In this document: positions 20,908 to 59,223 of the stretch, piece by piece
How positions within the stretch are numbered: the stretch's first letter is position 1
How the letters are laid out: each line of letters begins with the position of its first letter
Assembly (NCBI GenBank): GCA_037976565.1
Contig: CP137673.1
Location: 1,910,851-1,974,850 of the forward strand
DNA from: Mesocentrotus franciscanus
Taxonomy: Eukaryota; Echinodermata; Echinoidea; Camarodonta; Strongylocentrotidae
Reading direction: 5' to 3'
DNA: 64,000 bases
The notes under the pieces: model-generated
Told to the model about the DNA's origin: nothing
What the model saw: only the letters and a program-made list of their open reading frames with translations
Database searches by the model: none
Position numbers and translations under genes: made by a program

Positions 20908-22671
20908 TCAACCTATGGTGATGTCAACAGGGAGCTCGATGTCATTGAGGTTATAGAAGTTGATGTCAGTGTTGTCTACGACACCCCAAACCAATGGGAC
21001 GGGGGCAGCCTTCATCAGCAAGTCTAGCTGAGTGGCAAGCTCAGGGACGGGATCTTCTTCACTGAATGGACATAAAAGAAAAATCATTATAATTAGACAT
21101 TGAAAAACTACATATTGTCCAAGCATTCAGACTTATTTGTTCAACATTGCTTTCAATTAATTGTTCTCTCTCTCTCTCTCTCTGCACCTAATACCGGTAA
21201 TATGAATGTGATATAATCTGTTTATTTTGTTTCTACAGGTACATGTATATTCCCTACGTCCTGTTTGTTACGCACATGTGCGCCTTGAGCATTTAATCTT
21301 TAAATGGCTTTGGCACCCTATAAGTCTTATATTATAAGAAGATTTGACTAAAACGCATATATACACATGTATTACATATACCATATTCAAGGGAATACAC
21401 ACACACCATGAACAGTGAGGGTGATCTGTCAGGCTTACATATGCCTTGAGTTTAAATTAATGAACTCCCTTCCACTTCTCACATACCCTGTAGTTAAACA
21501 TGAGAAGAATTATTGGTGTAAACGTTAGGCTAAAAAATAAGTTTGTTCGTGAGATATTTGATGGGGCCCAATGACAAATCCTCAATATAAAGATGAAATG
21601 TGATTTCTTGGAAATCATACAGGCATTCTAAAGTGTCATGGACTTGTGTCAAACCCTCCTAGGTGTTTCCACTGATTGACAATGACTGATACAAGCTATA
21701 CTGTAGATTAAACCTTTACAATCATCAGCGACCTTTAACCTCGGTGACCTTTGAACCATAGTTACACTACAACTATAGTTTTGTTTCCTACCTGCATACA
21801 ACCACACAGAAGTTGGGCTGACCAGGGTTGGTTTTCTTGTATTTCTTGTCTGGCAGGAATACATCAAATGCTATCTTAGAGTCCACAATGAGTGGAGAGA
21901 ATCTGAATAAAGAATACAAGCATACATAGTAGTAAATACCAAAATAATAATTCCACATTTTCTTTAAAAATCAGTAGAATGGCTGAAAATGGTAATGGTG
22001 GGGTAATAATAATTGCAGGGCCTGAAGAAAGAGCAGTATTGATAGTGATGTTACTACCCTGGGTACTTAAGACCCATTTATTTACCATTCTTATTATTTA
22101 TCAAAATTAGATCAGTATAGTTTCAGTGCACTAATGATATTGAAAAGCTTAAATCCCAGGACATTTAGAAAATTGACTTTAACAGGGAATGTTTAACAGA
22201 TAGATAAAAACACATTTGTAACAACACAATCATTTCTTCACATCTATTCACATGAATTATTCATCTGGTTGATAAATACATGTACATGTACATAGGTGTA
22301 CTAGCTGCAAACAAGGCATTAAAGGGTTTGAAAACAACAAACTAGTGGACAGTCATTACTATTTTACTCAAAGTGAGTATCAAGGGTGAAAGTGATCTAG
22401 TGGGTGACCTCTTACCTTTGACCTGAATGTTCACAGGTCAGATTTGCTCCCTGAATGACCTGCAGTTTGTTCAATACATGACCTGCAATGACAAATGATC
22501 ACAAATAATAATTATTCGTACCTTAACATAACACAGGCAATACGCTCACAGCTCCTTAAAACTGCAAACTAGAGCTAAAGGAACTTATTAAAAGGGCACA
22601 ATAGTTAATTTAAAAAATGGGAGTATTTGAAAGGTCTGTATACAGTGTAGCTTTAATATGAGACAAATTAG

Positions 22672-22714
<43 letters not shown>

Positions 22715-25700
22715 AATCGGAGAGATGAGATGAGACTCAAACCAGTGCTAAAAAAGAGAAAAGAAATACAGAATTAGGGGCTAGGGCTGCATTAAATTGT
22801 ATTTTCAGCTCAGAGTAAAACAAATAATTTGAGTTTTAAAACAGAAATCATAGAAATATCTCTAAGTCCTTTACAAATAAAACCCTATGATCAGCTGTCA
22901 TATCGGTGTATCATTTGCAAGCAATATACTGTATAATGGCAAAACTCTACATTTAACATTACATTTTTTTAAATACCTAATATTTGGATATATCATGCAC
23001 TGACATATTGTGCAGCCCTGTAAAGAACTTAAAGATAAAGTTGAGTTGTGGTCATGCGATTGCATTGTGAAAGAAACATTGTGGAATCGATCAGAAAAGG
23101 TTGATCATCTAGCATGAGTATTGGTGTGTACTACAAGGTTCTGGAATCATCAAAATGATAAAAAATTTGGCCCAGTCTTGGGTAAATTTACAAGCACTGT
23201 ACACAGAAAGATGTATATGAGACTACACGAACATGTGTCATAAAAATCTGTCCCGATTTTTATGATGTTACATGCCATATTTAGAATATTAAGGCATTTG
23301 AAGAGCCATGCTTTTCAGGGAACATTTTTTCTCTGATGTTCTCCCACACAAATTATTATAAATAAATAATTATAATAAATTATTTTTCACCTCTTCCCAG
23401 AACTCAACCTTCTCTTTAAAAACAATACAACTAAAGCCCAACCATGTAAAAGCTGACACTAATTGAAGATAACATACCAACCAATTCATAAACTTTATGA
23501 AAGTAAAGTGATCAATATCAGGTAAAAGCATACCCGACAAGTAAAACCTTTTATGCAGAGGGAAAGGAAACAATAGATATTTTATCTTTTTATCTTTCTC
23601 CATCTCAAGATCTAATCCATGTATATAAGCTCCTATTAGCATAAAATTAACCATCAGCATCCTGTATAATCAAATCAGATATCAGGAGGGCCTGGAAGGG
23701 TTATCCTACACCATCTTATGTGCATTTAATGAGGGTTGTTAATTCACTCATAATCAAGCATGCATCACTGAATCATACTGATCATGGGCGTCAATCCGAG
23801 TTTGAGCATGGGGGGACACAATTACATGTCACTCTCTCTAGTTATTCTGTTTCACGGCATGTACTTTCATTGGTGACCAGTTCAGTTCTTGCCTTTTTTA
23901 TCTTTGACATTTTATTACATTTTTAGAGAAAGAAGACGATTTGTTGTACCGTTCTCGACTCTTAATCTTTGTCTGAATTCAGTTTCCCACCTCCCGCGCG
24001 CGTAATTTTTGACGTTTCATTAAATTATTAGAGAAAGAAGACGATTCATTGTACCGTTCTCGACTCTTAATCCTTGTTTGAATTCAGTCCCCCCCCCCTC
24101 CCGCGCGAAGCACGGAGGCTTTGACGTTTCATTAAATTATTTTAAAAAGAAGACGATTCGTTGTATGTACGTTCTTGATTCTTAATCTTTGTTCGATATT
24201 TGACATTTCATTAAATTATTAGAGAAAGAAGACGATTGATTGTACCGTTCTCGACTCTTAATCCTTGTTTGAATTCAGTTTCAACCCTCTCGCGCGTAGC
24301 CTGGAAGCTTTGACGTTTCATTAAATCATTAGAGAACGAAGCCGGTTCGTTGTACCGTTCTCGACTCTTAATCCCTGCTTGAATTCAGCTAGTTTCCCCT
24401 CTCCTGTGCGAAGCCAGGAAGCTTTGACGTTTTATTAAATTATTTTAAAAAGAAGATGATTCGTTGTACGTAGGTTCTTGACTCTTAATCCTTGTTTGAA
24501 TTCAGTCCCCCCCCCCTCCCGGGCAAAGCGCGGAAGCTTTGACGTTTCATTAAATTATTAAACTAGATGGAACTTCAACTGCGTGCAGTCGAAAATGATG
24601 CCTCCGCCATAGAGCAATTTTACAAACCAAAATGGAAGCAATTTTTAAAATTCAAGTTTGATTGTAATCCATCTGTTGGTTCTAATGATAACGTGATCAC
24701 AAGCTATTTTAGGATACATAATGAGCCCTGTGACCTTTGACCTCGTGACCCCCAAATCTAATCAGTTCATTAGCTCTGCAAGATACATACATGACCCAAG
24801 TTTGGCGGTAATCCATCAATCGGTTCTTGAGATAATGCGATCATGAGCTATTTTTGCATACATAATGAGCCCTGTGACCTTTGACCTTTGACCTCGTGAC
24901 CCCAAAATCTAATCAGTTCATTAGCTCTGCAAGATACATACATGACCCAAGTTTGGCAGTAATCCATCAATCGGTTCTTGAGATAACGCGATCACGAGAA
25001 CGGGACGTACGTACGTACGTATGTACGGACGGACGGACAACCAGAAAACATAATGCCTCCGGCTACTTTGTAGCGGAGGCATAAAAAAGAAGACGATTCG
25101 TTGTGCCGTTCTTGACTCTTAATCTTTGTTTGAATTCAGTTTCCCCCTCCAGCGCGAAGCGCGGAAGCTGTGACGTTTCATTTAATTATTAGAGAAAGAA
25201 GACGATGCGTTGTACCGTTCTCGACTCTTAATCCTTGCCTGAATTCAGTTTCCACCTTCTCTCGCGTAGCGGAAGCCGTTTGACGTTTCATTAAATAATT
25301 ATTAGAAAACGAAGATGATTCATTCTACCGTTTTCGACTCTTAATCCCCGTTTCATGAAATTTTTAGAGAAAGAAGCCGTTTCGTAGTACCGCTCTCAAC
25401 TATTAATCCTTGTTTGAATAAAGTTTCCCCCCTCCTGCGCAAAGCGCGGAACCTGTTACGTTTCATTTGATTATCAGAGAAAGAAGATGATTCGTTGTCA
25501 ACACAGAGAGAAAGAGGGAGAGAGAAAGAAAAAAAAAAGATTTTATCCCCAAATCGTAGGGGGGACATTTCACCACCTGAAAATTTGTGGGGACATGTCC
25601 CCCGTCCCCCCCCCATCCCCCCTGGGATTGACGCCCCTGATACTGATATGCATGAATAAATTCACCTAGGAATATAATGTACATGACATCAAATCATGAA

Positions 25701-28700
25701 CAAAAATAATTGTAATAATGTTATGCTAAAGGAAAGGCTATTATAGCATGTAATACATTTTGGAATGTGTCTGACATCCACTATAATTCTTTTTCAAAAT
25801 AAATTGAGATTACATGGTGAAAAAACTATGCTAAGTTTTGAATAAGGCAGAAATTTCCATGTCCACTTTGAATTTTGTCATAAAGTAAGTTAAAGCAGAC
25901 TAGAACATAATATCACTGGATTCCATGGTAACTGAAAGGATAGGCAGGGATTTACAAGGTCAAACAAGCCACTTAAGCTTTTACAAAAATTTCAGCCTGT
26001 GCATGGGCAGATAAATGCCTTGTTAACCGAAACATGAAATCCACTAAGTTAAATCTAGATACATGTGAATATTTGAGGGAATTATTCTACAATTCAAATA
26101 CACCCCAGCTGAGAAATCCACAATCAAGGGTAAGGGTCATTTAAGATTCTGCAAAACTATTAAATGGGTGACACCAGATTTAATGAAGGTGGAGGAAGAG
26201 AACTTGAGTAAGGGTCCCATTTTTTCTGTGTTTCTTTATATCTTTTTTTATTATTGAACATTAATCTTATGCTCAATAGACTGCTGTTATTTATCAAAGG
26301 CAATCTACAATTTACAAGCGTAGCTTTTCACTAGATTCCCCCATATTTCACTACAAATATATTCATCTAATTTCAGTTTAAATACCATGCAATTGTATTT
26401 ATATCTCTGTATGTTAATTCAACTGTATTATTACTTTCATGGCCTGATGTTATTGTACAGTGTATGTATTTTTACACCTATTGAAAGAACAGTTCTTTTC
26501 ATTCTTATTTTTTATTGCTTTTGATTTATGTAATGAATGTGAATGTGAAATGTGAAATAAAACTGAACTAAAAACTGAAACTGAAACTATCTAATAAGGT
26601 GAAACAATGCACATATACATGTAGCATGACAAACAAGGTTCCTTATATAATGGCAGGCAGGCAGATTCTGTACAACGTACACTTTAGTATGTAATGAATA
26701 GACTGAAGAGCTGGGGGTGGGGGTGGGGGGGGGTGGGGAGATGATTTTACATATTTTGGACCATTACATTGTTTTGTAGGGGGAGACTTCCTCTTTCCTT
26801 CTCTGAGAATATTTTTCATAATGTACTGTAAATGTACATGTATATGGCAGCTTTGGGAAATATAACAAAAACAATTACATTACCATAGGTTAAAGAACAA
26901 AAGTGCAGAAGAAAATTAAAGGGAATTTAGAACTTTTTTATTTATTCATCACTATCATTATTTAAAAACTTTATTCTATACAGATAATGCTTATTTTGTG
27001 CATGTATGCTTAAGTTTCTATTTTCTCGTACAGGTGTATATCATTAGTACAGCAAAGTTAGGACCATATAGAACTTGTTTTAAGAAAGAAAGCAAAAAAG
27101 GTAAGCTGGAGATATATGAAGAGATATTATAACAAAAACAAAAAATTTCAAACTGTATAATTTAGGTTACTATTATATTTTTAGGGGTTATTCTTTGTCA
27201 CTGATAAATATCATGTGCTACAGCTGATTAAAATCAATATGTCACTAAACTATTGAAATTCACACGTAGGTCATTTTTCCGTCTGATAATGGTAAAATGG
27301 CGGATTCCAAAAAGAAAACAGCAAATATTTGTCCCATCAAACAGATAAAACCACATTTGTTGTTCCCTTTACATAAGGCAATAAAATTCAAGTAAAAATG
27401 AATTCTAAAATGTGATTATAAGATTTGGTCAGAGACCATGCACTAAGAAAATTAATCTTCATCAGATCCATGACTTTAACGAGCATTTCTTTAACTTCAT
27501 TAAACTTCAATAAGGTTAAAAAACAACTGTATTTTGCTTTTATACTGATTAATTGAAAAGAAAATCAGTGACATACCTGTTGATTTAGCATCCGATGGTT
27601 TGACCAAGGGCTTGACAGCTCCACTCCAGAGATGACTCACAGGAGAATTCATCAAGTCACTTAAGTTTTGCTCCTCAAGCTGTTTCTTATCCTTGTATTC
27701 TTTCCAATTGTCAGGTTCCTTGGTCGTGTCACTAGAAGGAGTCTTGGAGTCCTGGGTCTTTTCCTTCCTATCACCAATGATTTCAAGAACATCAATGATC
27801 TTCTTGGACTTGGCCAGGATCTTCTTATTGTTGTTGCACAGCTTAGTGAGCTCCAGCTGCTTCTCTTTGACTGTTGCTACATTGTTGATGCAACGCCCAG
27901 CAGCGATGCTTGCAGGGACCAGATCCTTGGAAGGGAATGGAAGGTGTGCAGGCTTGATGCTCGAAGCAATGTCTGGTAGAGTAATCTTATCAAAGTTCCA
28001 ATGAGAATACTCAAGGTAGGCCTGGATGTCCTGGTCATTGATCTCAGGTCCCTTGGGTTCTTCTTGCATCATCGGAACCACCATGTCTAGGAACTCTTCG
28101 AGATCTACAGATGTATCAGAGGCCGTGTCAGAGAGCCCTAGATCTGAGCTAACACTCCTGTCATGGTGCTTGTGCTTGCCTTGCTTCAAGCCCTGTTTGA
28201 CCCGTTTCCTTGACAATCTGTAATTTTGATCATGTTTGGCAGACTCTTGGTCAAGATCACTTGGTGTATCTTTCCCACTATCATCAAGTGTACAAGCTTT
28301 TCTCCCAGAGTGAGGTGGAAGTGGTGGACAAACATTAAGATGTGAAGAGAAATTGAATTTCGCTTTTCCTCTGCTACTATCGCTTTCAGTACCACTCATC
28401 TTCATCTTTTTGTGTTTCTTTGAACTGTCCTCACTGCTTGCTGCCAACCTTCTCTTGTGAAAATCTAATAGACTGATACTCATGTCTTCAAATCCTGAGC
28501 CTTTGCCGGTATCATCATCAGGGTAAACAGGACCATCAGAATACACAGAACTTTCATCAGAAGTGTCTTTCGAATGTTTGGTGCTATCAATCGGTTCCAT
28601 TGGTTCAACAAACTCACAAGTCTTTTCCACTCTTGGAGACTCTCCATCATGCTCTTCAGATTGTTTACAGTCTCTAGACATCCCTGAACATGTCTCATCA

Positions 28701-31700
28701 TCTGTCATCTTGGTGGGCTTAGAATACCTCTCCCCCTCACTGGCATCTTTTCTACGTTCCAGGTTTTCAGAGTTCATTCCATTTTTATCGTCCTCCTTCT
28801 GGCAGGTTTTGTAATTTTTCATGTTAACTGGTTTGTTTGATTTTCCAGGAGATCTATGACTTCTCTGTCTGGCTTTGATGGCTCTTGACATCTCTCCTGC
28901 ACTGCCTACCTCTGAGGAGTCACAGCCAGACTGCTCCCTCCCGCTGCTGCTGTTCGTGTTGGCATTGCTGTAACCTGCTGACATCCTGTTGCGTTTGTAC
29001 CATTTCCGGGAGGATACGGAGCTGAGACTTCCAGAGTTGGAGTCACTGTCAGGCCAGATGGAATTCATAGGTTCATCGTCCCGAGTTGTTGAAACCAGCC
29101 CTGGACCTTGTGGTAAGCCAAGTTCTGGGTGTGACGGTACTGGTGCATCCGAAGCCGATATTCATAGTCAGTGACATCAGACCTTAGAATGATCAGTAAC
29201 AACAATCACGTATAACTACTACATGTAAGCCTAACATCAGACCTTAGAATGATCAGTAACAACAATCACGTATAACTACTAGGCCTAACATTAACAGCAA
29301 AACAACATATGTCATGATCATCCTCATAAAAAGTAAATTTCACAAACGCAATTGATGATTTTAAAATATATCTAGAAATGCATGAAAAATGTGTTTAAAA
29401 TCAACATCCACAAATCCCGAATATTCCCCCCCCCCGTTTTTTTTAAACCAAACTTTTTAAAACAGAAATAAATTTCTACGGATTATGACTACCGAGTAAA
29501 CTCTATGGCATATACAGATTCTTATATTACTAGAATTGATGACTCACTCGATGTGACGTGTAGTGATGTATCCAAGACGCATAAGATGACAGTATACCTA
29601 AAGGAAAAAAAAGAAGAGGAGTTTAACTTCCAGAATTAGTCTTACTTCTTTTACTCTAAGCAATACCATACCACAGATCAGTTCTGGTCTTGCACAGGGT
29701 GGGCTAGCCTTGTGAACCCCTGAAAACTTCTTTGTTTTGCTCTGATTACAGCATATCTCCTATCGTTAAAAAGACAATCATCCATTCTCTTCCGTCATCA
29801 CCTTTAATCAAGAGTACCAAATCAGTCTATTTGGCTACTGTAAAACGACGAATTGCTCATGATGGCCGTTTTTGGCAGAGAGGAAGTTTTGTGAATTGCA
29901 AAAATCTGATCTTGTCATTCAATCATTTCAAGGCACAAAACTATTGCAAACTATCTGAACCACTCACAACTTAGTGGACGTTTCTGATTTTACAGATTAT
30001 CATCATGGATCCCTTATACCAGATGTTGGGCATTTCTTAAAGCCCCTCTAAAGTGTTGGGAGCCCCATATTCGGCAATTATTTGATGGCAAAATTTCACT
30101 TAAATTGTTTCATAATGTGAAAGAGAAGGTCATTTGAGACACACTTCTGCAAAGATTTCCCCCCAAAAATGTGTTTGAAGACAAATATTGATAAAAGAAT
30201 TTTCGGTGCTCCCAACACTTTAGAGGGGCTTTAATATAGTGTTCTCCATGTAACTTCATCTCTTCCTAAATCTGATTTTGACAAATTTTGTCATCAAGGA
30301 GGATACAATCTACCAATGATTTCTTTGGTCTGCCTCATTTGCTCCTTCCTTCTTCTTTCTGCAGCCCATTTTGTCAACTTCTTTTCTCCTGTCCTCTTTT
30401 AAAAGTGCCCAAACCATCTATAAATATTTACTTTTATTACTAAACTGTATGAATTGATAATACTACTCCATGTTCTATGTAACCCTCACATGGAAACACA
30501 TTTTACTTCTGCTAAAGCCACCAGTATAGGTCTATGAACTTAATGTACGATTTATTTAATGTGTTGTGTTACTCTTGAATTTTAAAGGATATCCAATTAT
30601 TCGTAAATATTGTGATTCTGTTTTGATTCAATAAAACATAAAAAACCTTTACGTCAAGATTTCTACTTACTCTGTAGTGTTCCTTGTCTATGTAGGTCGG
30701 GATCAAAAGATTGTACGCTCGCTGGACAGAGAGGGGGATACCACCGTATTTCAGCTCCATTGAACCCTGAAATCAAGACAAACGAAAGGCTCCAGATCGA
30801 TTGACAAAATTACTCTTAAAATCTAATCTAAATCATTTAGGTATTTCATTTGTTGCCAATCATCAAATGGACAAAGATGCTAAAATTCAGACTTGTATTT
30901 GACAGAAGCCCTTATAACAATAAATGTATGTACATTACTGTGAGCTGATTGACATGACTCGATAAAACCTCCTAATCTTTCGTTGTTGCTAATTAATCAG
31001 CGATTATCAATGAATATTATCTATCAAATTCCTTCAACAAGCAAACCATACATTTGTAACTTGAACATTCAGTATGAGAGAATTCTGTAAATCGTTTTTA
31101 ATTTGTCATCATTACCAGGCCTCAAGACCAACTATAGAATTGACCTTAGTTTGCTTACCACTTCTAAAAGAAACAAGCCTTCTTCAGGATAAAGGTACTT
31201 CTGACCTTGCAGCATGTAGCCCATGGTTCGCCAAAACTTGCCCTAAACAAATGAAAAAATATATATCATAGATAATTGCACGAATATGAGACCCAATAGG
31301 TAATAACCAACAACAACAACAACACCAACAGCAAAAACAAATGTCGGAATATGACAACAGAGCAAATAGGGAAGTAGGTTGGGATTTCTCTGAATTTATC
31401 GATTGTCCTAACTCCTCAATATAACATATGTGGGAACTACTGGAGTAAACTCTTATGGGGCGTTGCAAGAAAGTTGCAATTGATTGCAAGTTGCGATTGA
31501 TTGCAATTTGCAAAATTTGCAACTGATATTTGCAATCGATTGCATCTCAACTTTCTTGCAACGCCCAAATAGTCTCCTAAATTTCCTTGGATTTTGTTAG
31601 GATTTAAGTTTTTGAAAATTCAATGAAATTAACTAGATCTAGCTTTTATTCTCCCCCCTCTCTTTCTCTCTCTCTTACTAATGGGGCGATGCAAGAAAGT

Positions 31701-34700
31701 TGAGTTGCAATCAATTGCAATTTGCAATTATCGCAAGTTGCTTGATTTTGCAAATTGCAATTGATTGCAACTTTCTTGCAACGCCCCATAAGAGACATAT
31801 TCTACTTGTTCAGATAAATCAGACTTCAGGAATAAGATCAGCGAAACAAAAGGAAGACTTAGACCGCATACGTCATAGGACCACGTTCTTTAAATTGTCT
31901 TTCCTCCTCTTTGCTTCTCCACATTTCCCCCGCCCTGGTGCCCCTATCTATACCACAAATAAATAAAAACAACTTACCTTATGACTTTTGACGACTATCA
32001 GCTCTTTATCCGGCTCCCATTCTCCAACTGATAGAGTACCACTGAAAGAGAAATGAGTCACTTCAGAAATGCTGTTGTATGACCTGGGGGGTGTTTCACA
32101 AAGAATAAGATCGACTTTAAGTTGGACTTAAGTATAACAGGCCGTTCATGCCATTGTTTGCTATCATTATTTACTGGCATTGGTCTCTCAAGGGATGTAC
32201 AAATCATGGTAAAAAATCTACAAAACTTACATTTTTGATAATTCATTATTGAAGGAAAAAATATTATCTAAAGATTATAATTTAGAGACCAATTGGGATA
32301 GCAACCAATGGCATGAACGGCCTGTTATACTTAAGTCCAACTTAAAGTCGATCTTAGTCTTTGTGAAACACCCCCCATATCTACCTTCCATATTACTCAT
32401 TGTAATATGAGCAATGATTTTCATGTTAGGTATACCTGGCTAAATCTCATTCAAACATGACAAATAGTCAAAGATAATTTACACAGAACAGGGCCCCGTC
32501 TTACAAAGAGTTGCGATTGATCCAAATGAATCGCAAGTCCTCTAATCAATCGCAAGTTTGCAGTCTCCTATCTCTTATGTACATAATTGCGTTTGATATC
32601 AATCGCAAATAAGTTGCGATTAATATCATCTCTTTGTAAGATGTATCTTGAACGAGCAGACTTGTTGAGGCAGGTAAATCATCAAGAACATGTAAATATA
32701 TGAAAATGTACAGTCCTGCATTATAGGAAAATCCAACCGTAATCGCTATTTGCTCTGACAGAAGGCAGAAAAATTGGAGAAGCAAATTGGTGAAAGTTTT
32801 AAAAAAATTGACAAATAATAAGAAAGTTATGAAATTTTAAGTGTTGCAATCACTATACAAATGGGAATTTCAAATTGGCCGAATTGGTAATGTCACTGTG
32901 ATGTAGTGGCAGACAATTCTGCCATTTGTTCCAACACACAAAATGAATAAAACGTCAATTGTTTCAAAATATATTACTCATGAGGGTATTTTTGTTTAGA
33001 GGAGCTATAATAATATGCTATCCATATATTATTGAGCAGTGCCCCTAGAGAAAATGCGTATATAGGAGAAAAACAGAAATTAAAGATAATTTTGTACACA
33101 ACAAAAAAGTCAACAATCAAAGGGTTGTCACTTGTCATTGACTATGTCACAATCCACTGACCAAATTGCCAATTTGAGATTTGCACAGATGTACTGATTT
33201 CATATCTTAAATCCATAACTTTCCGATTGTTGGTCAGATTTATTTCAAATTTTCATCATTCTCTTTCTATTATTTTTCTGCTTTCATTAAAATGAACTAA
33301 TATACAAAGGTTGGATTGCCCTTTAAAGGTACTATGTCCCATTTGCAGGCCAAAAAATGAAAAGGTTAAATTCCAACGGCATTTGAAAGACAATACTAAT
33401 TTAGAACTTCCCTGAAAAAAGGGGGGCTTGAAAATGTCTTTAAGTGGGAAAATAACGACTATTAGTTGTCGAATCGACTTAGGAGCTATAGAGCCAGTAA
33501 GTAATAGTCTGATTTTTCAGACCATTGTACCGAATGGTCGTACGTTTTATGCTGCGCAAAGATTCAATCAGTTTAATTTTGGCCATTACAAGAAGTGGGT
33601 TATTGATGTAGACAAATGCTCATGTACCCTTTACAGCTCATTTTATGTATGTTATTACCAAAGAAAAAAGCCAGTCAGTCACTCAATAGTGTCTGACAGT
33701 GAAGTCTAGCAAGTAAACGGGTTTCCTTGCATAATTTGAATATTAGGACACTGCTAACGTTTAAATTTCACAGATAGGACATACATGACATATTCATAAT
33801 TCCTGCAAAGTTCTACAGAATTTGATGTTGGCTGTAAAAGGGACATAGTATCTTTAACAGTAGCCTGGCTGGCAGAGGAGAGCAGGAGTATGGCTTGTGG
33901 ATGCCAGGCAATTTCAAGGAATACAGTCAAAAAGATAATTAGCAATAAAAGGATAGGGTAAAAGAGACAAAGAATTCTTTTTAATATGCTTCCTAAAGCA
34001 TCTCTCATCAGCCTTAAGGATACATGTAAATGACCAGAAAACAACAGAGAAACTTGTTTATGCTTTCATTTCAAGTCATTTAGATAATAATAACAGTTTG
34101 CTTTTCAGATTCCTAGGACCATTACTTTGCAAATTACAGTGTATCCAAAACTCTGTTGATAGACTCATAGTAGCCAAAGGGTAACATGTATCTCCTATCC
34201 TATCTGATCTTCACTTGTTACCTCTAGATAGTAGATAAGATACATGTAATATCTAGGATTGAATATAAACTACTTTTACTGGTATTCAAATGTATACAAG
34301 GTAGCGCACCTGTTTATCTTCGTGTACGCACCCAAATGCAATCTCCCATTATGCGAATTACAAAACATGTATCACACTTTTTAGGAATTAAAAATGCAAA
34401 TGTTTTGCTAAGTTTTTTTTTTAAAAGTCACTTGTAGCTGTTGTACATGAGTGATCAGAATCTGGTTTGATTTCTAGTGCATTTATGCTTAGATTGATTT
34501 CGATCCATCACCAATCTTAGGGTGCGTTTATGCTCACTTTTGAAGGCAGAATGAGCGATTTGAAACGCTCATTGTAAACGCTCATCGTAGGTGTACTGTT
34601 TATGCTCCCCTTCTCCGGCTCCTCCAGGCAAATTCGGGCTCTGCAGCTGGATTCGCAAACCTGCACTGCGCATGCTACGTTGACCCCCGGAACGTCATTT

Positions 34701-37700: not shown

Positions 37701-40700
37701 TTCTCAGATCGATAGTTATCCTACAAGAAATGCAAACAAATTTCACCGGTGGACATATATTAATGATTATTCAAGATTCTCTCTGAAACATTTGGGTCCT
37801 GTTGTTTGGAATAATGTAAATTGTAACCAATTCAATATTTCATTTAATAATACTTTCAGGAGGCAATATAAGAAACAGTTAATTTGTTCATACTGATTAC
37901 TTTTAATTTGTTCAATATCTCTTTTAAAATTATCCTGTGGAACCATACCACACTGTTCGATGCTCTTATTTTTATGTTTTATGTTTTATGTATTGTTTGA
38001 CCAATCTCTAAATTTTATAATAATAATGTAAAAACAAACAAACACATAAACTAGGTGTACACACTCTAACAAGCCACAAACCTGGCTTTCATTGTGTTCA
38101 CCATTTTCCAATTATCCACTTATGTTTTTATTTACCATTGACTGTTTTTACAAATTGTTTTAATTGATGTTGGAATCTGGAAATAAATGATTTGAATTTG
38201 CACAAACATAAAAAATGACAGCTTACATGTGTACACATAATATTCCAAAGGTACAAAACACAACATGTTAAAGGTACTATGTCCCATTTGCAGGCCAAAA
38301 ATGAAAAGGTTAAATTCCAACGGCATTTGAAAGACAATACTAATTTAGAACTTCCCTAAAAAAGGGGGCTTGAAAATGTCTTTAAGTGGGAAAATAACGA
38401 CTATTAGTTGTCGAATCGACTTAGGAGCTATAGAGCCAGTAAGTAATAGTCTGATTTTCAGACCATTGTACCGAATGGTCGTACGTTTTATGCTGCGCAA
38501 AGATTCAATCAGTTTAATTTTGACCATTACAAGAAGTGGGTTATAATGTATGTAGACAAATGCTCATGTACCCTTTACAGCTCATTTTATGTATGTTATT
38601 ACCAAAGAAGATAAAAAGCCAGTCAGTCACTCAATAGTGTCTGACAGTGAAGTCTAGCAAGTAAACGGGTTTCCTTGCATAATTTGAATATTAGGACACT
38701 GCTAACGTTTTAATTTCACAGATAGGACATACATGACATATTCATAATTCCTGCAAAGTTTTACAGAATTTGATGTTGGCTGCAAAAGGGACATAGTATT
38801 TTTAACACACTACTACAAATGAACAAATAAATTTTTTATCATAATTTATGTGTGTACTTACAGTCTTGATACCCTTTGAATCCTAAGAAGTTCAAGTCTC
38901 TGCTCTCGCTTTCGCTCAACCTGTTGGTCTTGTTTCATGCTGCCATCAGGATGCCCTTCTTTAGGCCCTCGGTAGGGTATCACAGTCTGATTGTGGTTGT
39001 GTTCAACTAGATCCTGAGCACTATCAAACAAAATAGAAAGCCGTGTAAACAGGTCTATGTATGGTATCACTGTCTGATTGTGGTTGTGTTCAACTAGATC
39101 ATTAGCACTGTCAAACAAAATAGAAAGCCGTGTAAACAGGTCTATGTATGGTATCACTGTCTGATTGTGGTTGTGTTCAACTAGATCATTAGCACTGTCA
39201 AACAAAATAGAAAGCCGTGTAAACAGGTCTCTGTATGGTATCACTGTCTGATTGTGGTTGTGTTCAACTAGATCATTAGCACTGTCAAACAAAATAGAAA
39301 GCCGTGCAAACAGGTCTATGTATGGTATCACTGTCTGATTGTGGTTGTGTTCAACTAGATCATTAGCACTGTCAAACAAAATAGAAAGCCGTGTAAACAG
39401 GTCTATGTATGGTATCACAGTCTGATTGTGGTTGTGTTCAACTAGATCATTAGCACTGTCAAACAAAATAGAAAGCCATGTAAACAGGTCTATGTATGGT
39501 ATCACAGTCTGATTGTGGTTGTGTTCAATTAGATCATTAGCACTGTCAAACAAAATAGAAAGCCGTGTAAACAGGTCTATGTAGGGTATCACAGTCTGAT
39601 TGTGGTTGTGTTCAACTACATGTAGATCATTAGCACTGTCAAACAAAATAGAAAGCTGTGTAAACAGGTCTATGTAGGGTATCACAGTCTGATTGTGGTT
39701 GTGTTCAACTAGATCCTGAGCACTATCAAACAAAATAGAAAGCCGTGTAAACAGGTCTATGTAGGGTATCACAGTCTGATTGTGGTTGTGTTCAACTAGA
39801 TCATTAGCACTGTCAAACAAAATAGAAAGCTGTGTAAACAGGTCTATGTATGGTATCACAGTCTGATTGTGGTTGTGTTTAACTACATGTAGATCCTTAG
39901 CACTATAACACAAAATAGAAAGCCGTGTAAACAGGTCTATGTATGGTATCACAGTCTGATTGTTGTTGTGTTCAACTAGATCATTAGCACTGTCAAACAA
40001 AATAGAAAGCTGTGTAAACAGGTCTATGTATGGTATCACAGTCTGATTGTGGTTGTGTTCAACTAGATCATTAGCACTGTCAAACAAAATAGAAAGCCGT
40101 TTAAACAGGTCTATGTAGGGTATCACAGTCTGATTGTGGTTGTGTTCAACTACATGTAGATCATTAGCACTGTCAAACAAAATAGAAAGCTGTGTAAACA
40201 GGTCTATGTAGGGTATCACAGTCTGATTGTGGTTGTGTTCAACTAGATCCTGAGCACTATCAAACAAAATAGAAAGCCGTGTAAACAGGTCTATGTAGGG
40301 TATCACAGTCTGATTGTGGTTGTGTTCAACTACATGTAGATCATTAGCACTGTCAAACAAAATAGAAAGCTGTGTAAACAGGTCTATGTAGGGTATCACA
40401 GTCTGATTGTGGTTGTGTTCAACTAGATCCTGAGCACTATCAAACAAAATAGAAAGCCGTGTAAACAGGTCTATGTAGGGTATCACAGTCTGATTGTGGT
40501 TGTGTTCAACTAGATCATTAGCACTATCAAACAAAATAGAAAGCCGTGTAAACAGGTCTATGTAGGGTATCACAGTCTGATTGTGGTTGTGTTCAACTAG
40601 ATCATTAGCACTATCAAACAAAATAGAAAGCCGTGTAAACAGGTCTATGTAGGGTATCACAGTCTGATTGTGGTTGTGTTCAACTAGATCATTAGCACTG

Positions 40701-41415
40701 TCAAACAAAATAGAAAGCCGTGTAAACAGGTCTATGTATGGTATCACAGTCTGATTGTGGTTGTGTTCAACTAGATCCTGAGCACTATCAAACAAAATAG
40801 AAAGCCGTGTAAACAGGTCTATGTATGGTATCACAGTATGATTGTGGTTGTGTTCAACTAGATCATTAGCACTATCAAACAAAATAGAAAGCCGTGTAAA
40901 CAGGTCTATGTAGGGTATCACAGTCTGATTGTGGTTGTGTTCAACTAGATCATTAGCACTATCAAACAAAATAGAAATGGAATTATTCTAGCAGTGTAAA
41001 CGGGTCTCTGTATGGTATCGCTGTCTGACCATGTTTGTGCTCGCTTATTTCAGAAATTTTAAATGATCATATTAACATGAAAATACATAATTCTCCAATA
41101 GAATAAAAAACGAAGACTGTTCAATTGCAATACTAATTAATGACTATGCCTCTCAGCAAGTTTTTAAAATGACTCAAACTCATTTTGGTAAAAATGTGCA
41201 AGTTCCAATATAAAAGTAAGAAAGATCTTTTAAAAGATTTTTACGTCGAAAGAATACACAGTACTACTCTTTTACATGCTCAGTTGGAAAATGATTAAAA
41301 CAAATGTTTTTCTTGTAGTACATGACTGTGACATGTACATGATACTTTACCTCAGCATGAAAGCCTTTATTGGACCACCTCCTGCAGCAGCACCAAAGGT
41401 AAATTCAGACGCCAT
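20908..41415 (-). CDS. TSEN54: TSEN54, tRNA-splicing endonuclease subunit Sen54
   Basis: Structural subunit of the nuclear TSEN complex (with TSEN2, TSEN34 and TSEN15) that cuts introns from pre-tRNAs. Ten minus-strand coding exons: 41351-41415, 38862-39020, 31978-32041, 31159-31242, 30671-30766, 29548-29597, 27577-29182, 22416-22482, 21792-21902 and 20908-21061. Sen54 signatures: MLSAQDL, YRGPKEGHPDGS and QRVSRLGTLSVGEW (N-terminus); GKFWRTMGY, PEEGLFLLEVGS, IPLSVQRAYNLL and YCHLMRLGYI; in exon 7 HWNFDKITLPDIAS and HLWSGAVKPL; finally FDVFLPDKKYKKTNPGQPNF and VPLVWGVVDNTDINFYN. Length is about 818 residues against 526 in human, the excess being an acidic Ser-rich middle in exon 7. Splice phases all agree, but exon 7 is one base short for a continuous frame (29060-29180). 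Intron 1 contains the amplified acceptor array. Identity is certain; exon 7 is doubtful as sequenced. Confidence 0.93.
21165..21183. repeat. Short CT microsatellite
   Basis: (CT)n run in TSEN54 intron 9. Confidence 0.9.
22676..22715. repeat. GA microsatellite
   Basis: (GA)n run in TSEN54 intron 7. Confidence 0.9.
23029..23419. mobile_element. TTAA-flanked MITE, family A
   Basis: Same element as 2789-3180, full length. Starts TTAAAGATAAAGTTGAG and ends CTCAACCTTCTCTTTAA. It lies in TSEN54 intron 7. Confidence 0.85.
23783..25639. mobile_element. hAT-like non-autonomous element carrying a minisatellite
   Basis: Tips CATGGGCGTCAATCC and GGATTGACGCCCCTG form 15-bp inverted repeats with one mismatch. 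They are flanked by a perfect 8-bp direct duplication ATACTGAT (23775-23782 and 25640-25647), the hallmark of hAT transposition. The 1857-bp interior has no transposase ORF. It consists of about eleven diverged copies of a ~112-bp unit with conserved words ATTAAATTATTAGAGAAAG, CCGTTCTCGACTCTTAATCC, GAATTCAGTTTCC and GCGCGAAGCGCGGAAGC. Another element is nested at 24561-25085. Confidence 0.88.
24561..25085. mobile_element. Nested element in the minisatellite
   Basis: Interrupts one minisatellite unit. Its ends show ATGCCTCCGCC and GGCGGAGGCAT-like arms (the right end has the pair GCCTCCGGCTAC and GTAGCGGAGGC). Internally a ~145-bp segment containing CTGTGACCTTTGACC and AAGTTTGGC is directly repeated (about 24722 and 24866), followed by a GTAC/GGAC simple repeat. 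Non-coding; the type is not recognised. Confidence 0.65.
26380..26590 (+). repeat. Possible LINE 3' tail
   Basis: AT-rich DNA ends in AATAAAACTGAACTAAAAACTG-like short GAAACT repeats, as often seen at the 3' end of non-LTR elements. No reverse transcriptase residues were recognised upstream, so this is weak. Confidence 0.3.
29174..29280 (-). repeat. Tandem duplication of the intron 6 acceptor
   Basis: A 47-bp segment is present twice with a 60-bp period (29174-29220 and 29234-29280). On the sense (minus) strand each copy carries TTACTGATCATTCTAAG, a branch-point-like sequence and AG acceptor, followed by GTCTGATGT, the first bases of exon 7. The copy nearer the exon (acceptor at 29182) keeps the reading frame; using the upstream copy (29242) reaches a stop after about a dozen codons. 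Confidence 0.85.
30037..30234. mobile_element. TTAA-flanked MITE, family C
   Basis: A 198-bp element with perfect 23-bp arms: AGCCCCTCTAAAGTGTTGGG at the left and its exact complement at the right, with TTAA at both outer edges. It lies in TSEN54 intron 5. Confidence 0.88.
31457..31789. mobile_element. Two foldback elements with GGGGCGTTGCAAGAAAG tips
   Basis: Element one (31457-31566) and element two (31682-31789) both have tips GGGCGTTGCAAGAAAGTTG (or GGGCGATGCAAGAAAGTTG) and the complement. The interiors are TTGCAATTGATTGCAA-like palindromes. The outermost bases of the pair (TCTTATGGGGCG and CGCCCCATAAGA) are themselves inverted, so the 340-bp block can fold as one. Confidence 0.8.
32086..32377. 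mobile_element. Foldback element with GGGGGGTGTTTCACAAAG tips
   Basis: Arms of roughly 60 bp, nearly perfect: GGTGTTTCACAAAG, GACTTTAAGTTGGACTTAAG and GGCCGTTCATGCCATTG, with the complement at the right. Related by its tips to 41666-41982. Confidence 0.88.
32500..32650. repeat. Small foldback-like repeat with GGGCCCCGTCTTACAAAG tip
   Basis: Left tip GGGCCCCGTCTTACAAAGAG; the right side has ATCTCTTTGTAAGA. The interior carries several ATCGCAA/TTGCGAT motifs. The right tip is decayed. Confidence 0.55.
32731..33322. mobile_element. Dispersed terminal-repeat element, same family as 16198
   Basis: Left tip GGAAAATCCAACC and right tip GGTTGGATTGCCC are complementary with a few mismatches. The interior matches 16198-16700 in inverse orientation. 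It abuts the TTAA element that begins at 33323. Confidence 0.65.
33323..33857. mobile_element. TTAA-flanked element, family B
   Basis: 535 bp. Left tip TTAAAGGTACTATGTCCC; the right tip is the complement GGGACATAGTATCTTTAA. A nearly identical copy lies at 38268-38805, in the same gene and orientation, and an internally deleted one at 42243-42545. No ORF of transposase length. Confidence 0.88.
34090..34400 (+). pseudogene. LINE reverse-transcriptase relic
   Basis: In broken frames the plus strand gives LQCIQNSVDRLIVAK, SDLHLLPLDSR and LLLLVFKCIQGSAPVYL. This matches the pattern of the C-terminal part of LINE (CR1/L2-like) reverse transcriptase (family pattern LQ..QN..ARL, LHWLPV, APxYL). Stops and frameshifts show it is dead. 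Confidence 0.6.
34521..34865. mobile_element. MITE with GGTGCGTTTATGCTCA tips
   Basis: The left arm GGTGCGTTTATGCTCAC and right complement GAGCATAAACGCACC enclose several further inverted GCGTTTA/TAAACGC motifs. About 345 bp; TTAG/TTTAG flanks. Confidence 0.75.
35285..35475. mobile_element. Inverted copy of the 16916 repeat
   Basis: Plus strand ends GAGCCCCGTGTATTTTTTTCACTG, split here as GAGCCCCGTGTA and TTTTTTTCACTG, the complement of the 16916 tip. Highly similar over its length. Confidence 0.65.
35476..35998 (+). pseudogene. LINE 3' end: RT C-terminus and ATT tail
   Basis: The reading frame gives YLSELLPRYTPVRTLRSASQ and, at 35543-35731, YGQRSFVYAATFLWNNLP, LNTFKTMLKTHLF and a stop. This is the typical last segment of a CR1/L2-type LINE ORF2. 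It is followed by a 250-bp 3' UTR with CCGCTTAGAGGC and a (TTA)n tail. 5'-truncated, in TSEN54 intron 2. Confidence 0.8.
36056..36232. mobile_element. MITE, 'GTCAAACC' family
   Basis: Best-preserved copy: TACAGTCAAACCTGC at the left, CAGGTTTGACTGTA at the right, interior GACCACCTGTCTACAAAG repeats. Confidence 0.85.
37630..38040 (+). pseudogene. Second LINE 3' end (different family)
   Basis: The ORF at 37666-37896 contains YPTRNANKFHRWTYIN, FSLKHLGPVVWNN and FNNTFRRQYKKQLICSY followed by a stop. This is the pattern of the C-terminal end of another non-LTR reverse transcriptase clade (TRN..., GP..WN, FK..K). An AT-rich 3' tail follows. 5'-truncated. Confidence 0.65.
38268..38805. mobile_element. 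TTAA-flanked element, family B
   Basis: Near-identical to 33323-33857 with the same tips (TTAAAGGTACTATGTCCC). It ends 57 bp from exon 2 of TSEN54, on the downstream-intron side. The high identity of the two copies suggests recent movement. Confidence 0.88.
38972..41035 (-). repeat. 87-bp tandem array: duplicated TSEN54 exon 2 acceptor
   Basis: On the sense strand each unit is an exon-2-like part (TGCTAATGATCTAGTTGAAC onward to GTGATACCCTAC, about 49 nt) plus intron-like DNA ending CTATTTTGTTTGATAG. Twenty-three units can be counted in the continuous ORF (22 complete, the last running into true exon 2), with one decayed unit at the far end (40985-41035). Units are 87 bp, except four of 93 bp that carry an extra CATGTA. 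No unit has an in-frame stop. The last copy (acceptor before 39020) leads into the conserved Sen54 sequence, so the array is a multiplied intron-exon boundary. Confidence 0.95.
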
Positions 41416-41511
41416 TGGAGTAGAAAAGTCCTTTATTTCTTCAGAACGGACCTTGACTCCAGCTTTATCTCCTTTTCACAACCCAGCTCCAATGTTCAGA
41501 TCATCATCAGA

Positions 41512-41665
41512 ACCCTGTTTCATAAAACTTGTTATCATTAACAAATGCTGAACTTCTATGACAAATAAACTCTCAGCCAATCAGATGCCACTATTTGATT
41601 CAGTAGCTTATAACAGTTATTGAAACTTGTTACTGATATTAAACAAGTTTTATGAAACAGGGCCC
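41512..41665. mobile_element. Foldback element with GGGCCCTGTTTCATAAAAC tips
   Basis: Left ACCCTGTTTCATAAAACTTG, right complement CAAGTTTTATGAAACAGGG. About 150 bp, just upstream of TSEN54 exon 1. Confidence 0.8.
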
Positions 41666-41982
41666 AGGGGGGTGTTTCACAAAGATCCTAAGTTGAACTT
41701 ATCTCTAAGTTGGACTTAACAATTATGGAAAGCTGTTAGCATCTTTGAAAATACATGTATGTTGTAAAAGTTATTTTGAAAGGCATAAAATGTTGATTGA
41801 AATCATTCATAATTTGTATTATAAAGGAGATTTCATGTTCTTGATATGGAATCTATGGAAAGTCTAAAATACTTGAATTTTTGCTTTTGAATATATTTTA
41901 TTTTAAGTCTACAAATGGCTCTCCATAATGTTTAAGTCCAACTTAGAGTTAAGTTCGACTTAGGATCTTTGTGAAATACCCC
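41666..41982. mobile_element. Foldback element with GGGGGGTGTTTCACAAAG tips
   Basis: Abuts the preceding element. Left arm GGTGTTTCACAAAGATCC and AAGTTGGACTTAA; right arm GTCCAACTTAGAG and GGATCTTTGTGAAATACCCC. Same tip family as 32086-32377. Confidence 0.82.
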
Positions 41983-42242
41983 TGAACTGTTTCCTTTTTC
42001 TGTCACTTATTCTAAGTGGAGTGAGAAAAGAAAACAAATTGCAATTGACCATGATATACAATCAACTGATCTTAAGCTTTGTGTTACGGGCCCCAGGACT
42101 GTATTCTCTTTGTATAATTTCATTGCTGGATTGGGGCAGGGGAGCGACATGCCCACCTGGCAAACTTCAATCTGACATACCTTAAATTACACCAAAGAGA
42201 AACGTGCCCCCAAGTCATGCTTACCCCAAACACTTTGAGACC

Positions 42243-42545
42243 CTAAAGGCACTATGTACCACTTGCAGGCCAAAAAAATGAAAAGGTTAAATTCCAATGG
42301 CATTTGAAAGATAATACTGATTTAGAACTTCCTTCAAAACGAAAATGCTGGAAAAAGTCTTTTTGTGGGAAAATAACGACAGTGAAGTCTAGAAAGTAAA
42401 CGGTTTCCTTGTATAATTTGAATACTAGGACATTGCTAACGTTTGAATTTCACAGATAGGACATACATGACATATTCATGATTCCTGCAATGTTCTAGAT
42501 TCTAGACAGAATTTGATGTTGGCTGCAAAAGGGACATTTAAATTA
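42243..42545. mobile_element. Internally deleted family B element
   Basis: Retains the left part (AAAGGCACTATGTACCAC) and right part (GCTGCAAAAGGGACAT) of the 33323 element, with about 230 bp missing inside. Confidence 0.7.
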
Positions 42546-42831
42546 AAAAATAATTATAAAAAAAACATTTTGGTTTGTCAGAGATTTTAGGGATTTGTTT
42601 TTCCCCTGCAAAGTGCTAGAGAATCCTAAATCAGCAGTGCTGTGTTTTGGAACAGATATTATTTAGCTGAATAATGAAAATAACACCATCAATTATCATT
42701 ATTGTAAATTTGTAATTAACACTGTAATATGCATACTTGCATAGTTACATGCACCTAGATACTGGTACACATACTATTCAAAGGCTTTATTGATAACAAA
42801 GTTAAACAAGCATACTCTACAAATACAAGCA

Positions 42832-43085
42832 TCCAGGGGCCACCTTAGGGCCCTTGGTGGGGTCCAGGGGGCAGAGCCCCTGGAAGCTCAAGGGTTTAAG
42901 GCATTTAATTACCGTGAGATGAGCAACCAGGGAATCGCCTTACGGCCCTTGGTGGGGTCCAGGGGGCAGAGCCCCCGAAAGCTCAGGGGTTTTAGGCATT
43001 TAATTACGGTCAGATGAGCATCCAGGGCCCCCCTTAGGGCCCTTGTTGGGGTCAAGGGGGCAGAGCCCCCAGAAGCTTAGGGAAA
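42832..43085. repeat. ~92-bp tandem repeat, three units
   Basis: Each unit contains TTAGGGCCCTTGGTGGGGTC, GGGGGCAGAGCCCC and TTAATTACGGTCAGATGAGCA. A single related unit is at 46040-46120. Confidence 0.85.
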
Positions 43086-43332
43086 ATTTATGCCATTTCA
43101 GCAACATTTGTATATAAATCACTGGTATCGAATTAGAAATAAACCAGCCCCATCAGAACGCTAGTGCGAGGGAGCATAGTGTCCAAGAGGGGTGAAGGTG
43201 ACGGAAGTGACCCCCTCACAGGTTTTTGAAAAATTGTTGTATTACAAAATTACATTCCTTAGCAAAACTATAGTATAAAAACAAGCAATATACTCTTTTC
43301 ACACTTCACTTTTCTACAATATTTACTTGTAG

Positions 43333-43665
43333 GCCTACATTTTGAAGGATATTATGCGAGGGAGCATGGGTCCCGAGCTAGAAGATTTTTGCATTTTTAT
43401 TAGGGTATTTGTCTAAACGCTGCACTCTTGGGCAGCGCCGTAGCTAGAGTTTGATGTTTGGGGGGCACATACATGTAATTGAACGACTTCCTGGGGAGGG
43501 GTCTATGAGGAGGGGTGTCTGATCTTGAAATTTTTTGGGGCCACGTGCCCCTGTGTCCCGCCTGTACTTGTACATTTTGAAGGATATTATGTGAGGGAGC
43601 ATAAGTCCCGAGCTAGAAGATTTTTGCATTTTTATTTGTCTACACGCTGTACTCTTGGGCCTTCA
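43333..43665. repeat. Direct repeat with GAAGGATATTATG, ~237-bp spacing
   Basis: Two copies (about 43333-43430 and 43572-43665) share TTGAAGGATATTATG, CCCGAGCTAGAAGA and TGCATTTTTATT. G-rich DNA containing GCCGTAGCTAGAG lies between them. Confidence 0.7.
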
Positions 43666-45300: not shown

Positions 45301-47954
45301 ATATTGAAAACGAATGTCATGAGGGAGGGAGGGTAGGCCCTAATGGTTAGAGGGAGAGGGAAAGGGAGGGGATATAGGGGAGGGAAGGGTGGGGGGGGGA
45401 TAGGGGAAAGGGGGCGGATCGAGGGGGAACCCTAATGCAAACTTCTACCACTTCTACGCCCTTCCATCGATAAACAGTTTTTATCTGCATGGAAATTACA
45501 AAACATACAGGCCTGAATCGGATCACGTCCCGGTACGTCATTCATAGGCCTATCTTATTTTTCGATAGGGCCTATTAATTGTTTGAGAATTATTTTCCTG
45601 GAGAGAAACCTTTCATGTGCAAATATTGTGAGAAGATATTCAACTCATCTGGTATGATAACTCTGGATATAACCGTTACTTGATTTAAAAAGACGTTATC
45701 ATGCACTGCTTTTTATGGTCTCCATTGCGTTAGTAGATTCCAGGAAAATATCACTTACGGGGGTTCAAAATAGCAACAACAAAAATCGCCTCGCCGCTAC
45801 GCTCCGCATCGTCACTGGGTCAACCCCCCCCCCTTAGCTAAAAGCTAGATCCGCCCTAGATAATGGTGACCAGCAGTGGCGTAATGAGCAAAAAAAGTTT
45901 GGGGGGGGGGGCAGACAAAACAAATCCGCATCACCCCACTCTTACATGCAGGCCCCGCTGAACGTTTTTCAAAGTGGGTGGGGGAGGCTAAAGTATTTAC
46001 GATCAGGTAGAGCGTAGCATAAGTTGGCGTGGGGTCTAGTGGCAAACCCCGGCGGGGGTCAAGGGGCGGAGCCCCCGGAAGCTCAGGGGGTATGGGCACT
46101 TAATTACGGTCAGATGAGCATATTTTGGTACCTTATTGATGACACTGGCAGGTCACTAATTCTCTCTCTCTTTTTTGCGGGGGCAGGCCCGCTCGGCCAT
46201 CCCTGGATCCGCGCCTGCAAATAACTGTATCTCAACAGTCACAATGTGCATTGCATACAGTATTTGTTGCTAGGCTAGGCAAGACAAACTTTATGGTTTG
46301 CCCTACCTAACACATAATTATGCAGTCTAGCTGCAATCTGACTCATTGAAATACAATTAGTTTGAACAGGTGAATGTAATAATTTGTACTGAGGCACTCC
46401 ACAAAGACGCATGCATTATATTTGGTTACACAGTCATATACATTTGGCAAAGTAAGGGCGAGTTTCACCTTTGATGTTTTAAATATCGTCAGCAATTTTG
46501 TGAGTAGTAGGCCTAATCGAATCATATTAAATGTACTGGGCGATACAATGAACAAATCAATCTCCATGAAATCAGAAGCGGTTCTAGAAGATTTTTGGGG
46601 GGCGGGTAGCTTGAGCCCCCAAACCGCTCTAGAATCTCTCCTGAATGAAATAAAACTCGTCAACATTCTGCAAGAACTAAATTCTTCATGTTCATCTTTT
46701 AATCAATACAATATAAAATAGAATAAAACATATCATACACAGGTATCAATAACAAAGATGAGGCAGATATTTTCATCAATATTCGAAAGAGGCAGCAAAC
46801 AATGATATCGTCAAATGATATTTCGTGGTTTATGCCGCTGGTTTAATTGGATTAAGTCTTGTATAATCATCTGTTACATCCTCAGGGATTGAATATAGAT
46901 CGGACAAAGGTTGAACATGCTGAAAAATTAACCACCGATGAAGATCTTCATGCCCGACAATAGTTTAAAGATATTTTTACTCGGGAAAGGCCTCAGCTTG
47001 GAGATTCAGCACAGTATACAACAGATAGATACATTTGGATGGTAAATTGTATTCTTGATCGTAGTGAACTTTCAGTTCCTTAATATATATTGCACATTTG
47101 AATGGATTTTAGATGGATGAAACCGAGCAAATAGATTGTATATATGAATATATGAATATCAAATTGATTTAAAATGAGATTAACGAAGATACCAATGTTT
47201 GAAAAATCTCTGACAATTATAGGAGTCTCCGAACAGGTGGATTACAAAACACAACAGGTGGCGCCTTTTCACCCTGCAAGTTGTATGAAGACAGGGGCAG
47301 AAGGGCTGACATGATGAAACGATCATCAATGAAGGATTTTCAAGGGATCCACAGCTTGAATGGGCCCATGGATCTGTTCCCTTCGAATGTATTGGCTGGC
47401 AAATTATTCTTGAAGATTTTGTAGTACTTAGGTACCACTCTCGACTATAACAGTTGCATAAAATACATCATCAATATTGCACTTGAGTTTGTCGTCGACG
47501 TATCATCAAACTGGAGCTAAAATGCATCTGGCTTATAAATTCATCCATGGTTCTGAAGATTGTCAAATTGTAATGCGGTCTGAAACATGTTAATTGAACC
47601 GTATGCATGGCATACTGTTGAGTTGTACTCAAACAAGGAATATATAATATGTTTACAACAGAATACACATGTATAAGTTTTAGTGAGGCGATATCTTTTT
47701 TGAAAGACATAATTATGACGTTTATAACTGAATACAAGTTTCTTAGTAATCAATGACCTTTTCCTGACTCATATCAGAACCTCAACATATTTTAACATGA
47801 AAGAAACATAAAATAACAAAACCTTCATACAGACATTATTAATAAAGAAAAAAACACACCCTAAAGACACGTTTACAATTGATAAACAGAGATATAAGCA
47901 ATTATGTGTAAAACAATTTATGAGACATTTATAAGAATAAAATATTTTCTCATT

Positions 47955-58625: not shown

Positions 58626-59223
58626 CAGGCGCGTAGCTAGGATTTTATTTTAGGGGCGGTAGTGAGCACGCAAAACGTGCGAATAACTTACAGAGCGCCC
58701 GAAGCGCGCTCCCTGGGGCGGGGTGCAGGAGGGGAGTTTTCCCCCTCCCGCGCGGAAGCTATGACATTTCATTAAATTATTAGAAAAGGAAGATGATTCG
58801 TTGTACCGTTCTCGGCTCTTAATCCTTATCTGAATTCAGTTTCCCCCCTCCCGCGCGAAGCGCGGTTCAGCTTTGACGTTTAATTAAATTATTAAAGAAA
58901 AAAGTCGATTCGTTGTACCTTCTCGACTCTTAACCTTGTCTGAATTCAGTTTCCCACTCTCGCGCGAAGCGCGGAAACTTTGACGTTTCATTATTAGAGA
59001 AAGAAGACGATTCGTTGTACCGTTCTCGACTCTTAATCCTTGTCTGAATTCAGTTCCCCCCCCCCTCCCGCGCGAAGCGCGGAAGCTTTGACGTTTTATT
59101 AAATTATTAGAGAAAGATGAAGATTCGTTGTACCGTTCTTGACTCTTAATCCTTGTCTAAATTTTCAAAAAATGTTTCTTTGTCTGCTCCTTTTTCTTTC
59201 TTCGTCCTCTTACTTTTTTCTCT

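Follow-up and report, generated by a model that had tools for sequence, protein, structure and literature searches.

The window, 64,000 nucleotides of Mesocentrotus franciscanus contig CP137673.1, carries the gene for TSEN54 on its minus strand, with a tandem array in the first intron of that gene. The features are as follows.

41351..41415, minus strand: TSEN54 exon 1 (coding part), ending in phase 2 at AG/GTAAAG (from the sequence and alignment with the S. purpuratus and L. variegatus N-termini)
40959..41055 (upstream limit approximate), minus strand: older decayed copy of the repeat unit (sequence comparison)
39021..40958, minus strand: 22 complete tandem units, each an exon-2-like start followed by an intron-like 3' splice site (TRF and acceptor splitting)
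38861..40987, minus strand: 709-codon open frame through array and exon 2, reaching 1 base past the exon end (ORF reading)
38862..39020, minus strand: TSEN54 exon 2, whose first 49 bp (39020-38972) are the last, partial unit copy and which is followed by the donor ACT/GTAAGT (sequence, homology)
27576..32041, minus strand: TSEN54 exons 3-7, at 32041-31978, 31242-31159, 30766-30671, 29597-29548 and 29182-27576 (homology)
20909..22482, minus strand: last TSEN54 coding exons (GHVLNKLQV.., DSKIAFDVF.., EEDPVPEL.. to the stop), borders approximate (homology)

Human TSEN54 gave collinear matches along the minus strand between 39022 and 20920, some of the pieces matching weakly. Its residues 19-74 aligned at 41% identity from the junction Ser-Ala through exon 2, as read from the last acceptor. 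PDB Sen54 chains matched exon 7 with an E of about 7e-05, and PF12928 was present in all eight relatives recovered by our protein search. The host gene appears closer in sequence to Strongylocentrotus than to Lytechinus, with identity over ungapped residues of about 703/774 to S. purpuratus P0001 and about 635/774 to L. variegatus P0002 (partly faulty gene model). Exon 7 contains a one-base frame break at a G run (29082-29080, minus strand), so that reading on from exon 6 leads to ..GWFQQLGTMNL and a stop. Because the frame homologous to that of other urchins (DDEPMNSIW..) is open from there to the exon end, the break is more probably an error of base calling or assembly than the mark of a dead gene; a non-functional allele is a caveat for our reading of the array.

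Other repeats were seen in and around the gene. A MITE-like dispersed repeat, about 540 bp long and bounded by short inverted ends, occurs at 38268-38807, 33323-33859 and 42244-42537; two copies lie in TSEN54 intron 2 (96.9% identity) and a partial one lies upstream of the gene. Also upstream are 2.7 copies of a 95-bp tandem repeat (42828-43082), with a related stretch at 46055-46121. Intron 3 has several short repeats of the TTGCAATTGATTGCAA kind at 31471-31778. Tandem repeats of about 105-113 bp, of one family (..TTTGACGTTTCATTAAATTATTAGAGAAAGAAGACGATTCG..), were found about 34 kb apart at 23902-25493 and 58750-59163.

Structure of the array

The array extends over 38972-40977 in intron 1, with a period of 87, 22.8 copies and 94% matches by TRF. 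Splitting the minus strand at the acceptor gave 23 starts of the form AG/TGCTnnnGATCTA, with first exon bases at 40958, 40871 ... 39107, 39020, the 23rd start being exon 2 itself (39020). The distances between acceptors define 22 complete units, 18 of 87 bp and 4 of 93 bp, the longer ones all having the same 6-bp insertion. Each unit joins about 38 bp of intron end to about 49 bp of exon 2 start, and the last copy continues into RGPKEGHPDGS, in the region aligned with human residues 19-74. The first-pass annotation had described about 22 tandem copies of an 87-bp unit of this composition, the last running into conserved Sen54 sequence, and the count, the composition and the junction were all borne out.

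All 23 AG/TGCT acceptors share one phase, each lying a multiple of 3 from the last. Exon 1 (41415-41351) ends in ATGCTGAG/GTAAAG, and because its final bases are AG, any acceptor completes AG+T as Ser; joining exon 1 to any of them gives ML-S-A-(N/Q/K)-D-L. The earlier proposals of some 23 near-identical acceptors in a common frame, and of stop-free units with lengths divisible by three, thus hold, the latter as the 709-codon open frame from 40987 to 38861; the remaining two minus-strand frames of the unit both contain stops. The length of the open frame, however, is not beyond chance in itself, since one open unit remains open when it is copied many times.

Variation among the units was used to look for coding constraint. 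Substitutions affect 16 positions, split evenly between the exon-like part (8 of 49 positions) and the intron-like part (8 of 38; Fisher p 0.59). Classified by hand, these changes are 13 nonsynonymous, 3 synonymous and 0 stop, for neutral fractions of about 0.73-0.76, 0.22-0.25 and 0.02, respectively. In a neutral test of low power, the probability of three or more synonymous changes was 0.72-0.81 and that of no stop was 0.73-0.76. The unit variation thus looks neutral, and a coding repeat under detectable selection was rejected at this low power. Pfam matches over the whole array, to DUF5504 (78 bits) and PAH (28.8 bits), were also rejected as real domains: the scores sum over copies, and pieces of two or three units fell below the cut-offs (16.0-16.5 bits against 27 for DUF5504; 16.6-19.3 bits against 21.3 for PAH). 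A transposon origin of the unit was rejected because, when compared with the window, the unit had no match starting outside 38960-41000 better than E 0.57. No Rfam family reached its gathering score in 38000-43500.

Turnover of the array and related species

Pairwise identity among the 22 units averages 96.2% (range 90.8-100%), and 16 distinct types are present. An exact 266-bp repeat, with its two copies 714 bp apart, points to block duplication. Immediately upstream lies a 24th copy, ending at 40959, that is older than the array units. It is 79-82% identical to them, with 82% identity to unit 39281 over 84 aligned bases, and it has a 13-bp insertion, an in-frame TAG and no AG at its own start. 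Its 3' end nevertheless supplies the first intact acceptor (40958). The higher identity among the units than to this 5' boundary copy is the pattern of concerted evolution.

The real start of exon 2 appears to take part in this turnover. Its first 49 bp are identical to those of three of the 22 units (40436, 40256 and 39722). It also carries a CAG (Gln) codon, present in four of the 22 units, where the three other echinoid proteins have Lys, and this codon is a derived Lys-to-Gln change. Together, the identity and the derived codon suggest that exon 2 and the array exchange sequence, as in minisatellite turnover with a coding exon as one of the copies. Among the 23 starts, which are preceded by 13 CAG and 10 TAG acceptors, the Gln codon follows five of the TAG and none of the CAG acceptors (Fisher p 0.007, descriptive only as the copies are not independent events). 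A Ser/Asn difference at NH(S/N)Q was dropped as proof of exchange, as Diadema also has Asn and the polarity is therefore ambiguous.

A unit was found in one of the eight related proteins. S. purpuratus LOC100890147 isoform X1 (P0001, 843 aa), which comes from an automatic gene model, has exactly one unit at the same place as the array in the window; this unit reads SAKDLVEHNHNQTVIPYRDLFTWLSTLFD and leads into the S. purpuratus exon 2, SAKDLVEHNHSQTVIPYRGPKEGHPDGS. Of the 29 residues in this unit, 12 correspond to the window intron end, and nine of these match the common window unit. Residue states of the S. purpuratus unit also occur in individual window copies: Arg in unit 39281 and the decayed copy, Trp in unit 39542 and Lys in unit 39902. 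The unit duplication is, judged by these sequences, apparently common to both species, which makes an assembly artefact unlikely, and the gene model of a relative includes splicing to an upstream acceptor. This independent result favours use of an upstream copy and so gives partial support to the first-pass proposal that the gene could make a ladder of N-terminal isoforms or else that the last of ~23 acceptors must be picked. The X1 model could be mispredicted; another possibility is that S. purpuratus carries just one duplication and splices to the first of its acceptors.

No extra unit was present in L. variegatus P0002, D. antillarum P0003 or the five more distant relatives (two sea stars, two sea cucumbers and one more). 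A 1428-residue array-bearing query, with 7993 candidates scored, gave three matches, which were the same three echinoid proteins, none of them with two or more extra units. With a 408-residue piece of the array as query, no protein matched at E 0.001 among 8000 candidates scored, a search whose length range ended at about 714 residues.

Splice signals and comparable systems

Each unit carries what looks like a complete 3' splice site. The consensus unit contains TTTAC, whose A lies 25 nt ahead of the junction, and no AG occurs in the 33 nt that precede the acceptor AG; the stretch before the acceptor is 68% pyrimidine. As 13 of the 23 acceptors are CAG and that of exon 2 is TAG, exon 2 does not stand out by its acceptor sequence. 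Donor-like sites within the units are weak, the best matching 5 of 9 consensus positions compared with 6 for the exon 1 donor and 7 for the exon 2 donor. Internal exons ending inside a unit were thus thought unlikely, and a chosen acceptor most likely keeps all the units downstream of it. Depending on the acceptor, the predicted exon 2 measures 159, 246, 333 ... 2097 nt and the predicted intron 1 shrinks from 2330 to 392 nt; intron 2 is 6820 nt.

Published work leaves the choice of acceptor unsettled. The accessible text of one study reports no order preference among equal-strength tandem acceptors in a designed library (PMC6783452). For human 3' splice site pairs, the available portions of another describe an overall preference for the upstream acceptor, which long introns on both sides of the exon weaken but do not reverse; the abstract of that study says that sites closest across the exon are preferred with long introns (PMC9225289). 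TSEN54 exon 2 falls under this condition, with both flanking introns long (intron 1 at least 392 nt).

The array has the features of a "mirage": a boundary-spanning unit, retained splice signals and concerted evolution. The closest parallel is the amphioxus globin BflGb6, where, in the available text of PMC3087553, tandem units likewise consist of an intron 3' end and the 5' part of exon 2, and many units carry splice signals. The globin units evolve in concert within their cluster with the boundary copy left out, whereas in TSEN54 the 3' boundary, exon 2, takes part in the turnover. BflGb6 has units of 150-160 bp in 6 and 3 copies in two haplotypes, compared with 22 units of 87/93 bp here, and, unlike BflGb6 as described there, the TSEN54 units are all in phase and open, occur in an echinoid, and have a counterpart in a relative's annotated protein. 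RT-PCR of BflGb6 suggested regular splicing (PMC3087553). The amphioxus Adh3, TnC and PGBD5 mirages are also minisatellite repeats that duplicate splice sites, with units of 10-72 bp in Adh3 and of 60 and 108 bp in PGBD5, and are said in the available portions to yield no aberrant mRNAs and no splicing interference (PMC3087553, PMC3902484).

Internal tandem repeats that lie at exon-intron boundaries in human segmental duplications are similar in that copy number alters exon-intron structure, the repeats being kept or spliced out (PMC2812944, as far as its accessible text goes). On average their unit is 30 bp long and repeated 4 times; they occur in recent primate paralogues, act mostly via new introns and, in contrast to TSEN54, are not described there as arrays of whole 3' splice sites. 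The TSEN54 array differs from the amphioxus mirages in its clade, in having more copies than the globin cases, in full phase retention and in the unit in a relative's annotated protein. No report of such an array in an echinoderm was found in searches of the open PMC literature.

How the array may be spliced

The array is a mirage-type minisatellite whose unit spans the boundary between TSEN54 intron 1 and exon 2, and each copy therefore brings along the exon start and the acceptor AG together with the pyrimidine tract and a sequence resembling a branch site. In the account we favour, the founding duplication would have preceded the split from S. purpuratus. Expansion in the window species would then have come about as blocks of units slipped or were exchanged unequally, and the start of the real exon 2 would have been involved too. 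Most mRNA would use the last acceptor, giving the 159-nt exon 2, and a minor fraction would use the nearest upstream acceptors (246, 333 nt ...). Any chosen acceptor would retain every unit downstream, and each retained unit would insert 29 or 31 residues just before RGPKEGHPDGS with the frame intact. We give this combination, a mirage array spliced mostly to its last acceptor with leakage to neighbouring ones, about an even chance of being correct. It has to contend with the reports that amphioxus mirages do not disturb splicing (PMC3087553, PMC3902484, in their available text), the automatic origin of S. purpuratus X1, the lack of any longer array-bearing protein among the 7993 candidates scored and the frame break in exon 7. 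The overall upstream preference in human pairs also argues against the last acceptor as the default (PMC9225289, in its accessible portions).

The array may instead be intron only, every mRNA having exon 1 spliced to 39020; the long frame would then be open simply because the 87-bp unit that was copied is open. The regular splicing reported for the amphioxus Adh3, TnC and globin mirages (PMC3087553, PMC3902484, as available) and the neutral variation among units are consistent with this, as are the L. variegatus and D. antillarum proteins, which are joined without a unit and keep the conserved N-terminus. The translated unit annotated in S. purpuratus X1 speaks against it, however, and the last copy has no advantage in acceptor sequence, so we regard silence of the array as credible but somewhat less probable.

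A bolder form of our preferred reading is that a mirage has turned protein-coding. The intron 3' end would have been captured as coding sequence in a process begun before the S. purpuratus split, 23 nearly equal acceptors would yield a ladder of TSEN54 forms with 0 to 22 N-terminal repeats, and the array would be rewriting the real exon start by exchange. We consider this full version rather unlikely. At the other extreme, the first intact acceptor (40958) could be the usual one, and the protein would then be about 1430 residues long, with 22 repeats in its N-terminal part. No stop interrupts the frame between 40987 and the end of exon 2, S. purpuratus X1 could follow the same rule with one duplication, and human pairs lean upstream overall (PMC9225289, accessible portions). 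Exon 2 would then reach 2097 nt, though, the 13 nonsynonymous and 3 synonymous changes indicate no constraint, and no long protein of this kind was among the matches from 7993 candidates, all of which makes routine translation of the whole array improbable. Least probable by far is an assembly artefact, the animal having a different number of copies or no array at all: the exon 7 break allows for small sequence errors and near-identical blocks (266 bp exact) are hard to assemble, but the 16 unit types, the decayed boundary copy and the unit in another species' protein all argue against it.

TSEN54 offers a natural competition experiment for the spliceosome, with 23 acceptors in one gene that have nearly the same surrounding sequence and differ mainly in their distance to the donors. 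Junction counts would tell whether the choice is first-come, made by exon definition or random. The apparent exchange between array and exon would amount to a minisatellite editing the coding start of exon 2 in a housekeeping gene. If the upstream copies were used even rarely, a minisatellite would be producing a length-variable protein from intron sequence, with the reading frame undamaged.
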